Below are positions 17,376 through 63,730 of a DNA stretch of 64,000 nucleotides, piece by piece. The DNA is from Rickettsia hoogstraalii (GTDB lineage: Bacteria > Pseudomonadota > Alphaproteobacteria > Rickettsiales > Rickettsiaceae). Within the stretch, counting starts at the first letter, position 1. Each line of letters opens with the position of its first letter. The notes beneath the pieces are model-generated. The model saw nothing but the letters and a program-made list of their open reading frames with translations, was not told the origin of the DNA and searched no databases. Both the position numbers and the translations under genes were made by a program. The stretch is from the NCBI RefSeq assembly GCF_000825685.1, contig NZ_CCXM01000001.1, positions 1,139,828 through 1,203,827 of the forward strand, read 5' to 3'.

Positions 17376-17537
17376 GGCATTGTTGCGTAGACCGGTAAAA
17401 TCCACTGTGTCACCCCGTGGCTTGACCACGGGGTCTATAAAAACAATAAAAAATACTAATAATTTTAGTATTTTAAACTGGATCCCGTGGTCAAGCCACG
17501 GGATGACAGAGGTGAAATTGATCCACGCAACAACGCC
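17376..17537. mobile_element. Palindromic mobile element (GGCATTGTTGCG type), 162 bp
   Basis: The left end GGCATTGTTGCGTAGACC at 17376 and the right end TCCACGCAACAACGCC ending at 17537 are imperfect inverted repeats. It is flanked by TTCCCGCGA (17367-17375) and TTCCCGCTA (17538-17546), an 8/9 direct match. It contains a GTCACCCCGTGGCTTGACCA hairpin and a matching GGATCCCGTGGTCAAGCCAC. It lies within a CCCGC-type hairpin repeat. No open frame of note. Confidence 0.75.
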
Positions 17538-34439: not shown

Positions 34440-34760
34440 CCGTCATTGCGAGCCAGCATTTATGCTGGCGTGGCAATCTCAGGAGTTTTTTTATCTTATT
34501 AGATTGCCGCGTCGTTGCTAACGCAACTCCTCGCAAGGTATTGTTGCGTGGATCAATTTCGCCTCTGTCATCCCGTAGTCAAGCCACGGGGTGACACCGA
34601 GCCGTCATTGCGAGCGACTGTAAGGAGCGTGGCAATCTCGTCAAATATCCTGAGATTTGCTTCGTCAAAACTTACAGTTTTTCCTCGCAATGACGGATAA
34701 ACCGGTCCACGCAACAATGCCTCCTCGCAATGATGAGGGATTTTCATAATGTCAAAGGTT
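34440..34760. repeat. Repeat cluster: RPE interrupted by a palindromic mobile element
   Basis: An RPE starts at about 34442 (GTCATTGCGAGCCAGC) and would end at about 34736 (CTCGCAATGATGAGG). Between them the 34537-34721 element has inserted at TCCTCGCAA. This gap lies between the two antiporter genes, about 380 bp in all, and contains no other gene. The short open frames here are repeat translations. Confidence 0.8.
34537..34721. mobile_element. Palindromic mobile element (GGTATTGTTGCG type), 185 bp
   Basis: The left end is GGTATTGTTGCGTGGATC and the right end GGTCCACGCAACAATGCC. The flanking 9 bp are TCCTCGCAA on both sides (34528-34536 and 34722-34730), an exact duplication. It contains a CATCCCGTAGTCAAGCCACG hairpin of the second family and a full inner RPE (about 34604-34696). 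It splits the right arm of an older RPE. Confidence 0.8.
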
Positions 34761-60716: not shown

Positions 60717-61607
60717 ATGATGATATTCAAAAAATCTTTATTTATCTTACTATTACTTATTACTTCCTTAGTTAAAGCAGAGATTATCGAAGTAGATAAC
60801 TTAGATAAAATAAAACAAGATTTTAAAGAAAATTATAATAAAAATTATGTACCTCAGGATTTATTAGTAGTAACGGTTTTAGATGAATTTTTGTTTAAGT
60901 CTTTAGTGCCTATAGGTGAACAAATTGACAAAGATATTTATCTTACACTAACTCCTCTTTTGCGTAATATTAATAAAAATTCAAAAGCTATTTATATAGA
61001 TCAATTGATTTTAACTAATGATAGTTATAAGAAAGAATTACAAGAATCTGATTTTCCAAATTTTGTAAATGAAATGAGTAATAGTAAAATCCCTATAATA
61101 GCAGTAAATGATGGATTTACCGGTAATTTTAATAATATTCCTAAATTTGAAATATGGTTTGCCGATTATTTAAAGAAAAATTTCAATATTGATTTTTCAA
61201 ATAGTTTTCCAAACAATAATTATGTTATTTTTAACAATTTAGACAGTTTTGCTAATACTTATCCGGTATTTTATAAGGGTATATTGACGAGTAATAATAT
61301 ATCGGAAGCGGAAATGATACTCAATTTCCTTATTCAAATGGGATTTATGCCTAAAGCTTTTATAATAATTAGCAGTAACATAGAATTATTAAAATCAATG
61401 GAGTTTCAACTTAGTAGTTATAGTTCTAATATATTATTTATTGGTTATCATTATAATAATAAAAATACCCCGGAAAATAAAGATGCTGCATATTATACTA
61501 AACTGATTAATGATTTAATACCTCAAATAAATAAGATAAAAAGAAATAATCCGCCTCTAAAAACTAACAAGATAAAAGATAAAAATCCTTATGATAAAAA
61601 TCAATAA
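60717..61607 (+). CDS. Secreted DUF2608-like protein, copy 1
   Basis: The 296-residue protein begins with a signal peptide (MMIFKKSLFILLLLITSLVKA) and continues EIIEVDNLDKIKQDFKENYN. The DUF2608 family contains HAD-fold-like proteins of intracellular bacteria. Here QDLLVVTVLDEFLF is at the motif I position, but the usual D-x-D is degenerate (LDEF). The later part has NDGFTGNFNNIPKFEIWFAD and AEMILNFLIQMGF. The paralogue begins 17 bp before its stop. Confidence 0.6.
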   Translation: MMIFKKSLFILLLLITSLVKAEIIEVDNLDKIKQDFKENYNKNYVPQDLLVVTVLDEFLFKSLVPIGEQIDKDIYLTLTPLLRNINKNSKAIYIDQLILTNDSYKKELQESDFPNFVNEMSNSKIPIIAVNDGFTGNFNNIPKFEIWFADYLKKNFNIDFSNSFPNNNYVIFNNLDSFANTYPVFYKGILTSNNISEAEMILNFLIQMGFMPKAFIIISSNIELLKSMEFQLSSYSSNILFIGYHYNNKNTPENKDAAYYTKLINDLIPQINKIKRNNPPLKTNKIKDKNPYDKNQ

Positions 61608-62436
61608 AGTTTTATTGAGCTTACTTTGCTTAGTTATTTCGTGTGTAAGTTATGGTCAAATTATTCCTACTTACTCTGTAGATTCGGTAACAATGAAAAA
61701 TTTATTACCGAAGATAGATGCAGATACGCTGGTACTTATAAATATAGATAATACTATTATAACACCGAAATCCAAATTATTTCGATACCGGGATAATTCT
61801 TATATAAATTTTACTAAATATTTATATAGTCTTGCAGCGGATAACGCATCAGTTAATAAAACTATTGCAAAATTGATAGTGCAGCGTCAAATGATGCTTG
61901 TTGAATCTAAATGGGTAGATTTAATTAATAAGATGAAACAGCAAGGTGCAACAGTTTTAGGTCTTCAAGAAATAACTGCTCCATGTAATTTAATTGAAAA
62001 TTATGAAGGATGGTTATATACCTTACTTTACGGACTCAATATTAATTTTACTAATAAAGTTAATGATAAAGATGTATTTAGATTTAATCCAAGCGATGCT
62101 GGAGCCCCTATTTTTTATTTAGGTATAATATTTACCGGTAATATAAATAGAGTAAAAACTCTTATAGAGTTCTTAAAAATTATACCAAAACAACCTACAA
62201 AAATAGTAATTTTTGCAAATAATAAAAAAGATTTAGAAAATATGGACTCTTATTTAAGCATGGTTGATATAGGATATTATGGAATTGAATATTTGGGGTG
62301 GCAAATGTTACCGGGATCACCTGATCATCAAATCGCTGAGTTGCAGCAATCTACGTTTTTAAATACCGGTCAGTGGTTAGAAGATGATGTAGCTAGCGAG
62401 ATGTTAAACATTCCCGATAACAAATTACAAAAGTAA
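61591..62436 (+). CDS. Secreted DUF2608-like protein, copy 2
   Basis: The 281-residue protein begins MIKINKVLLSLLCLVISCVS, a signal peptide. It has DTLVLINIDNTIITPKSKLF at the motif I position of the HAD-like fold (NIDNT, close to D-x-D-x-T). It shares FTGNINRVKTLIEFLKIIPK with the first copy (TSNNISEAEMILNFLIQMGF). It is in tandem, overlapping by 17 bp. Whether it is active is not known. Confidence 0.6.
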   Translation: MIKINKVLLSLLCLVISCVSYGQIIPTYSVDSVTMKNLLPKIDADTLVLINIDNTIITPKSKLFRYRDNSYINFTKYLYSLAADNASVNKTIAKLIVQRQMMLVESKWVDLINKMKQQGATVLGLQEITAPCNLIENYEGWLYTLLYGLNINFTNKVNDKDVFRFNPSDAGAPIFYLGIIFTGNINRVKTLIEFLKIIPKQPTKIVIFANNKKDLENMDSYLSMVDIGYYGIEYLGWQMLPGSPDHQIAELQQSTFLNTGQWLEDDVASEMLNIPDNKLQK

Positions 62437-62453
62437 TCTACTATTGAAAGGAC

Positions 62454-62757
62454 AACGTTGTTGCATGGCTAGTAAAACGTCATTGCGAGGAGCGAAGCGA
62501 CGCGGCAATCTTGTCAAATTTCCTGAGATTGCCACGCTCCTTGCAGTCGCTCGCAAGGCATTGTTGCGTGGACCGGTAAAACCCACTGTGTCACCCCGTG
62601 GCTTGACCACGGGGTCCATAAAAACAATAAAAAATACTAATAATTTAGTATTTTTAACTGGATCCCGTGGTCAAGCCACGGGATGACAGAGGTGAAATTG
62701 ATCCACGCAACAATGCCCGCTCGCAATGACGGAAAAACCGAACCATGCAACAATGAT
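62454..62757. repeat. Nested (stacked) palindromic repeats
   Basis: Outermost ends AACGTTGTTGCATGGC and GCCATGCAACAATG-like at 62741-62757 enclose an RPE (CATTGCGAGGAGCGAAGCGA on the left, CTCGCAATGACGG on the right). The 62557-62717 element has inserted into it. Inside that is a second-family hairpin. All are in the gap between DUF2608 and cysQ. No gene is present. Confidence 0.75.
62557..62717. mobile_element. Palindromic mobile element (GGCATTGTTGCG type), 161 bp
   Basis: Ends GGCATTGTTGCGTGGACC and TGATCCACGCAACAATGCC; flanked by CGCTCGCAA on both sides (62548-62556 and 62718-62726), an exact 9-bp duplication. The interior is nearly identical to the copy at 17376-17537, with the GTCACCCCGTGGCTTGACCA hairpin, an AT-rich stretch and GGATCCCGTGGTCAAGCCAC. 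Confidence 0.82.
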
Positions 62758-62777
62758 ATTCGCATTTAATAAATAAT

Positions 62778-63554
62778 ATGAATAATAACTTAATAGCCGC
62801 TTTAAAAGATTTAATTATTAATACCGGTAAGGTTGCACTAGATATAAAAAAGGCAGGAATATTGACTGATATTAAATCAGATGGGTCAGTAGTCACTAAT
62901 GCCGATAAGGAAATTAGTAAAATAATTTATCAAACTCTACGAAGCTTAACCTCTCAAATAGCTATAGTATGTGAAGAGCAGCCGCTACCTATATTAAGCA
63001 ATGATACTTTTTGGTTAATCGATCCTATTGACGGGACACGGAGCTATGTAAACGGTAAAAGTACATATACGGTAAATATAGGGCTTATTGAAAACGGTCT
63101 TCCAACTATCGGCTTGATATATCACCCTGAAACAGCAAAGCTATATTATACCGATGTAAACGGTCGGTTAAAAATCGAACAGAATTCTAAAGAAATATTT
63201 GTTAATCATGAACCTAAACATGAAGAGCTTAATGCGGTAATAGGTTTTTATAATTCAAATAAAGCTACTAAAGAATTTTTAAGTAAATATTCATTCGGTC
63301 AAATAAATGCAATAGGTAGTTCAATTAAACTATGCTTAATTGCTGAAGGAGCAGCTGATATATATCCAAAATTCGGTCAAACTATGGAATGGGATATAGC
63401 GGCAGGTCATGCTTTAATTAAAGCCGGCGGCGGTAATATTTTAGATACACATGGACAAGAAATTACTTACGGTAAAGAAAATTTTGCTAACCCCAATTTT
63501 TTCGCCTGTAGTAAATATTGGTTGGAAAGGGAGGCTGTGTTTCGTGAATACTAA
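62778..63554 (+). CDS. cysQ: 3'(2'),5'-bisphosphate nucleotidase CysQ-like (inositol monophosphatase family)
   Basis: The 258-residue protein shows the Li-sensitive phosphatase landmarks: an NADKEISKIIYQ start, EEQPLPIL, WLIDPIDGTRSYVNGKSTYT, and a C-terminal EWDIAAGHALIKAGGG. These bind the metal ions and phosphate. CysQ removes PAP from sulfate assimilation, and in Rickettsia the role may be more general. Complete length. A repeat follows the stop. Confidence 0.88.
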   Translation: MNNNLIAALKDLIINTGKVALDIKKAGILTDIKSDGSVVTNADKEISKIIYQTLRSLTSQIAIVCEEQPLPILSNDTFWLIDPIDGTRSYVNGKSTYTVNIGLIENGLPTIGLIYHPETAKLYYTDVNGRLKIEQNSKEIFVNHEPKHEELNAVIGFYNSNKATKEFLSKYSFGQINAIGSSIKLCLIAEGAADIYPKFGQTMEWDIAAGHALIKAGGGNILDTHGQEITYGKENFANPNFFACSKYWLEREAVFREY

Positions 63555-63570: not shown

Positions 63571-63730
63571 GGCATTGTTGTGTGGATACTGGATACCGCC
63601 CCGTCATTGTGAGCAGTCGTAGACTGCGTGGCAATCTCATGAAATAATAACAAACTCCTGAGATTGCTTCGTCGAATTACTGCGTAATTCTTCTCGCAAT
63701 GACGAAAAAATCGAGCCATGCAATAATGCC
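63571..63730. repeat. Palindromic element enclosing an RPE
   Basis: Outer ends GGCATTGTTGTGTGGATAC and GCCATGCAATAATGCC at 63571-63730 match the mobile element. The inside is a complete RPE (GTCATTGTGAGCAGTCG ... CTCGCAATGACG). I see no 9-bp duplication at its ends. It lies between cysQ and mutS. Confidence 0.65.

Follow-up and report, generated by a model that had tools for sequence, protein, structure and literature searches.

A 161-bp sequence at positions 62557–62717 of the window (the whole 64,000-nucleotide stretch of Rickettsia hoogstraalii DNA analyzed here) is very probably a non-autonomous, IS903-like miniature transposon (MITE) of the IS5 family, moved in trans by an IS5-type transposase, judging from the sequence of its ends, flanks, and relatives. 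We take these IS5-type elements and their ends to resemble IS903. The terminal inverted repeats, located by inverted-repeat comparison, are GGCATTGTTGCGTGGA on the left (62557–62572, plus strand) and TCCACGCAACAATGCC on the right (62702–62717, minus strand), forming 16-nt arms that are 100% complementary. An exact 9-bp direct repeat, CGCTCGCAA, is read directly on either side (62548–62556 and 62718–62726). As DNA, the element folds at −63.4 kcal/mol, vs. −23.2 ± 3.3 kcal/mol for 200 shuffled sequences, none of which folded as well. There is no gene in the interior: the reading frames are short, and the matches are of the RPE4 type, apart from a single weak match without meaning. An earlier note, made from the letters of the window alone, had described a short palindromic element with an exact 9-bp duplication and a gene-less, non-autonomous interior, and this description is borne out on each point. 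The element thus has the features of a MITE (short length, no transposase gene, terminal inverted repeats, a fixed-length duplication, and multiple copies). Its core is a palindrome dimer of 98 bp (62590–62687) that reaches at best 23.7 bits against the NCBIfam RPE-4 model (TIGR03777), below the curated cut-off of 23.95, and is therefore referred to here as RPE-4-like. The evidence supports confining the RPE-4-like part to these inner ~98 bp, with the larger, end-to-end shell as the mobile unit.

The element is the youngest layer of a nest, with a DUF2608 gene (61591–62436) on one side and a CysQ-like member of the inositol monophosphatase family (62778–63554) on the other. The host palindrome (62478–62731, by inverted-repeat comparison) has the arms CGTCATTGCGAG (62478–62489) and CTCGCAATGACG (62720–62731), of which the right is broken by the element; the duplicated 9-mer belongs to an arm, so the proposal in the earlier note that the element had landed inside an older repeat holds. 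This palindrome lies in turn within an older shell (62454–62757), the ends of which, AACGTTGTTGCATGG and CCATGCAACAATGAT, are of the element's type but degenerate; no 9-bp duplication is seen there. The host palindrome has the CGTC tip and the dimer in inverted orientation (CGTCATTGCGAG/CTCGCAATGACG) that characterize CGTC-tagged REPs, and palindromes of the CGTCATTGCGAG class may represent the published class RPE-6 or RPE-7. At the site as a whole (62409–62765), the relatives G006, G007, G003, and G010 have different RPE-type repeats, and in G017 it is nearly empty; this intergenic site is a local repeat hot spot. No orthologous empty site for the window copy is demonstrable among the relatives compared, because they carry other repeats or none at this position.

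Copies of the element are widespread in the R. hoogstraalii genome (1.48 Mb, two contigs). The end motif GGCATTGTTGCRTGG (15 bases, up to two mismatches allowed) occurs 132 + 137 times (269), compared with 1 + 0 for the reversed motif, and a search with the element itself identified at least 40 places with whole or partial copies (40 of 213 candidates scored). A consensus was drawn from the end pairs of 158–166 bp, of which there are 27; 22 could be aligned to the window copy, and five were dropped. Divergence from this 22-copy consensus is 0.6% for the window copy, between 2.5 and 27.3% for the rest, and 9.8% on average over all of them. Elsewhere in the window there is a copy of 185 bp (34537–34721) with the exact duplication TCCTCGCAA (34528–34536 and 34722–34730), a copy of 162 bp (17376–17537; L032) whose duplication, TTCCCGCGA/TTCCCGCTA, agrees at 8 of 9 positions, and an end pair of 160 bp (63571–63730) with no 9-bp duplication. 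The 185-bp copy and a copy at a further locus, L061, are 97.8% identical across 185 bp, and each is flanked by an exact TCCTCGCAA duplication; the flanks are unlike apart from the palindrome arms. From this comparison, the composite unit itself appears to have moved.

The ends were paired over part of the genome, with 100 of the 269 motif matches listed: the 118 loci comprise 30 that came from searching with the element, the 30 motif matches at the head of the list, and 58 stretches around listed forward matches. Among the matches listed, 121 distinct end pairs (including some mispairings of nested ends) have 9-bp flanks that are identical in 13 cases, differ by one mismatch in 13 and by two in five, and differ by more in 90; the corresponding counts in a first run of 62 pairs were 10, 7, and 4. 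Swapping flanks between copies yields exact agreement in 0.88% of combinations and agreement with up to one mismatch in 2.6%. For these same 121 pairs among the matches listed, repeat lengths of 4–8 and 10–15 together give a single exact case, of length 8. These repeats, together with the empty sites described below, argue for real transposition, as the earlier note had held. Some of the non-duplicated pairs among the matches listed have flanks from two palindromes, and pairs flanked by two different palindromes may be recombined. Considering the 26 insertions with a duplication of at most one mismatch (among the matches listed), GTCA or TGAC exactly adjoins 14 (background 0.44%), and the same motif within one mismatch adjoins 19 (background 7.8%). 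IS903 is known for a flank preference.

Empty sites are found for two other copies. The first, L042 (contig C1, 277482–277643), was aligned with seven relatives: it is filled in G006 and G007 and empty in the other five (G003, G017, G021, G008, and G018), where the ends and the dimer are both absent and a single 9-mer is found (TAATGAGCT, or TAATGAACT in G017). The match coordinates of G001, which lies outside the alignment, also fit an empty site. Degeneration of the left end (GAGCTTG) makes the boundary of L042 less well defined than those of other copies. For L061 (contig C1, 3858–4041), the joined R. hoogstraalii flanks were aligned to nine relatives. In three of them (G003, G021, and G008), the host palindrome is present but not the element, and there is a single copy of the corresponding 9-mer (TCCTCGCAA, TGCTCGCAA, and TGTTCGTAA). 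G018 lacks the palindrome as well, and the remaining five relatives have other, uninformative sequence. The comparison of flanking 9-mers with empty sites that the earlier note had called for thus gives a single 9-mer, at copies other than the one in the window. Two further loci were rejected as empty-site cases: at L035 the relatives bear different repeats and no empty site is clean, and L164 likewise has no clean empty site.

Neither PF13737 nor PF01609 nor the IS5-family transposase of the congeneric genome G011 has a match in the R. hoogstraalii genome; a partner transposase would not be needed there had it since been lost. The IS with matching ends that the earlier note had suggested seeking do occur in Rickettsiaceae. 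In G011, an IS of ~1.15 kb with the ends GGCTTTGTTGCATGGCT/GGCGTTGTTGCATGGCT is present twice and encodes an IS5-family transposase of 321 aa (228 bits against NF033579; cut-off 140). No 9-bp duplication is seen at either copy; the two have one flank in common, so rearrangement is likely. This common flank (L091/L095) is inverted in arrangement and encodes, by eye, an apparent Tn3-type transposase. In G082, a member of another Rickettsiaceae genus, an IS of 1,122 bp with the ends GGCTTTGTTGCGTGGATA/GGCTTTGTTGGGTGGATA and a 323-aa DDE transposase is flanked by an exact 9-bp duplication, GGCTCGTAT. Identity to the G011 protein is 31% for the G082 transposase and 64% for one from G078. Ends of the form GGCNTTGTTGC(A/G)TGG are found at the IS5 genes of G011, G082, and G103. 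Across the family, 16 of 30 transposase loci have an end pair: the duplication is exact in one (G082), agrees at 8 of 9 positions in another (G072, where the IS is 596 bp and probably truncated), and is absent from 14 (both G011 copies included), some of which are the same site twice, have the GTTCGG end type, or are rearranged. G003 was rejected as a holder of the partner IS: the IS5 copies read in it (L147 and L160) have GGCTTTGTTCGGAAGG ends and no 9-bp duplication.

Relatives of the transposase also occur beyond these genomes. A contig search with an alignment as query identified 35 loci, some of them in Rickettsiaceae MAGs and in the Rickettsia endosymbiont of Pyrocoelia pectoralis. Many of the 35 stop at contig ends; the contig search with a single transposase protein as query found no relative. 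On plasmids, there are at least 5000 records of relatives, of which five were read. Matching ends accompany an exact 9-bp duplication in three of the five (ISAha2, ISAcma6, and a Kozakia IS) and an 8-bp repeat in a fourth (ISRta5); for a Leptolyngbya plasmid IS, the right end was looked for and not found. Among 85 genomes, end motifs on both strands number 26 to 920 in the 23 genomes of the genus (reversed controls 0 to 4) and 0 to 49 in 62 other family genomes; of the latter, G078 and G028 rank highest, and both also yield transposase matches. Within the genus, end motifs are most numerous in G011 (462 + 458), the genome whose IS copies are intact. Its genus mate G015 has 333 + 302 end motifs and no match to the G011 transposase, a case of heavy amplification with no partner found. 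Another genus mate, G002, has 86 DDE_Tnp_1 matches, most of them nearly identical copies of a different kind of IS (frame of ~351 aa), and only 36 + 38 end motifs.

The content of the shells was assessed in a 214-kb sample consisting of the window and ten 15-kb stretches chosen regardless of repeats. This sample has 16 end pairs (two of which overlap in the window), and an RPE-type palindrome arm lies inside all 16, with two or more arms in 15; among 1500 random pieces of 175 bp, 7.7% have an arm and 4.1% two or more. Conversely, CGTCATTGCGAG-class dimers (n = 47) have ends on both sides in 10 cases and on one side in 21 when up to two mismatches are allowed (0.5 and 7.8% at random), and in 7 and 14 cases with up to one mismatch; 16 to 26 of the 47 have no end motif. 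For GTCATTCCCGCG-class dimers (n = 10), the counts are two on both sides and one on one side (0 and 2 with up to one mismatch), and 7 to 8 have no end motif. RPE-4-like dimers (n = 6) have ends on both sides in four cases and on one side in two (4 and 1 with up to one mismatch; 3 and 2 of five under stricter pairing). In ten hand-picked copies, the same ends surround different dimer classes. Furthermore, most of the supported insertions fall in RPE-type palindrome arms; TAATGAGCT and GATTTATTC are duplicated 9-mers outside such arms. Given arms in all 16 pairs and this preponderance of insertions in arms, the palindromes serve as cargo and as target alike; this link between what the shells carry and where they land is a statistical association. 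We propose that shells landing at both tips of a palindrome capture it.

IS5-type transposition in trans best accounts for the ends, the duplication length, the empty sites, and the existence of IS relatives. By this mechanism, a DDE transposase of the IS5 type, working in trans, would recognize GGCNTTGTTGC(A/G)TGG ends, cut the target with a 9-bp stagger, and insert the unit there; repair would leave the 9-bp duplication. The unit would consist of a palindrome dimer (RPE-4-like in the window copy, other RPE-type elsewhere) enclosed by a shell of ends that varies rather little, and its preferred targets would be arms of the same palindrome class, adjoining GTCA. Palindromes would thereby be carried along as well as landed in, giving rise to nests. 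We infer the action in trans, the choice of transposase, and its loss from the lineage or its action from elsewhere.

The principal alternative is that the palindrome dimer (RPE-4 and its kin) moves independently, by some other mechanism, and that the outer ends belong to older repeats that it entered. The dimers without recognizable ends (the 16 to 26 of the CGTCATTGCGAG class) are in keeping with this, as is L061, where the dimer present in G003, G021, and G008 is missing from G018, so that dimers come or go as units. We nevertheless consider it improbable, because the 9-bp duplications abut the outer ends rather than the dimer, different dimer classes lie within the same ends, and the empty sites of L042 miss ends and dimer together. 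Less probable still is homologous recombination or gene conversion among repeats, with the direct repeats as a by-product of palindromic surroundings. Many copies are indeed flanked by two palindromes and have no duplication, and the repeats at one site vary between relatives. However, exact repeats cluster at length 9 against 0.88% for swapped flanks, the duplicated TAATGAGCT and GATTTATTC are not palindrome arms, and empty sites have a single 9-mer.

IS families other than IS5 also make 9-bp duplications, and a MITE moved by a transposase of such a family would be compatible with the lack of an IS5-type gene in the R. hoogstraalii genome and with the Rickettsiaceae IS copies, most of which have no visible 9-bp duplication. 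Against this stands, in a comparison centered on IS5-type genes, the GGCNTTGTTGC end, which is present at IS5-family genes both of Rickettsiaceae and of distant plasmids, and we regard this explanation, too, as very unlikely.

MITEs and IS5 elements are known kinds of element. Among IS elements of the IS5 family (NCBIfam NF033579), ISAcma6 and ISAha2 share the GGCNTTGTTGC ends and 9-bp duplications with the 161-bp element but encode a transposase, in place of which the latter carries a palindrome. Other bacterial MITEs (RUP, NEMIS/Correia, and ERIC) are likewise short, gene-less, and multi-copy, with inverted ends and a target duplication; the element described here differs from them in its 9-bp duplication, IS5-type ends, exchangeable palindrome cargo, and palindromes as preferred targets. 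Insertion of IS into REP palindromes, cited in the relevant section of PMC3733652, also has palindromes as targets, but here the same palindrome class is also the cargo, so that copies nest. Among the palindromic elements of Rickettsia (RPE-4, RPE-6, RPE-7, and CGTC-tagged REPs), the core is RPE-4-like and the host palindrome has CGTC tips; RPE-4 is given as ~95–100 bp in the part of PMC2267715 concerned, vs. the mobile unit of 161 bp here, with its IS-type ends and duplication.

The mode of RPE movement had been left open. The 2007 review PMC2229807 enters the RPE target duplication as “?” in its pertinent entry. As far as the pertinent sections of the 2013 survey PMC3733652 go, CGTC palindromes apparently have no dedicated transposase, CGTC-1 and CGTC-4 of R. 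conorii equate to RPE-6 and RPE-4, and REP dimers enclosed in larger palindromes are noted for A. variabilis, T. roseum, and H. neapolitanus (palindromes of 41 bp in the last). The 2013 genome paper PMC3767692, in its sections on these repeats, reports that the same sites hold different RPE groups and favors a common origin of RPE-4/6/7, still allowing for insertion hot spots; the loci seen here favor repeated insertion. PMC10969869 treats RPEs among MITEs and, in the parts concerned, does not name a partner IS. No report of a coupling of IS5-type shells with palindromes was found in the literature searched, most subscription papers lying outside the search. The shell, the duplication, the empty sites, and the palindrome preference together make a specific mechanism that can be tested; a transposon that has no gene, contains an RPE of one kind, and has landed in an RPE of another would explain both the spread and the nesting of these repeats. 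More tentatively, and with the odds somewhat against so broad a claim, RPE-type (CGTC-tipped) palindromes of Rickettsia, and perhaps of other bacteria, might spread in shells of DDE-transposon ends whose transposase prefers them, being captured when shells land at both tips; such a cycle would account for how RPE-4/6/7 spread and nest and for their apparent hot spots, landings in other RPEs such as RPE-1 among them.

Rfam matches to the window element are all below gathering score. The RPE-4-like dimer (62578–62702) scores 48.6 bits against RF02625 (Wolbachia sRNA 46; gathering score 65.3), and this family may be a related palindromic repeat. The copy at L200 lies in RPE-1 (TIGR01045, 47.3 bits; cut-off 30), with a duplication of 8 of 9 positions. 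It was rejected as an empty-site case: G003, G017, and G013 are missing the entire nest, RPE-1 with it, and thus offer no basis for judging the MITE by itself. At L200 positions 281–610 (contig C1, ~274.8–275.1 kb), G017 is without RPE-1 and reads through TTAGATATCTATT, and the two edges of the filled site read AGGTGTC and AGATATC; from these edges and the G017 sequence, RPE-1 itself may leave a short duplication.
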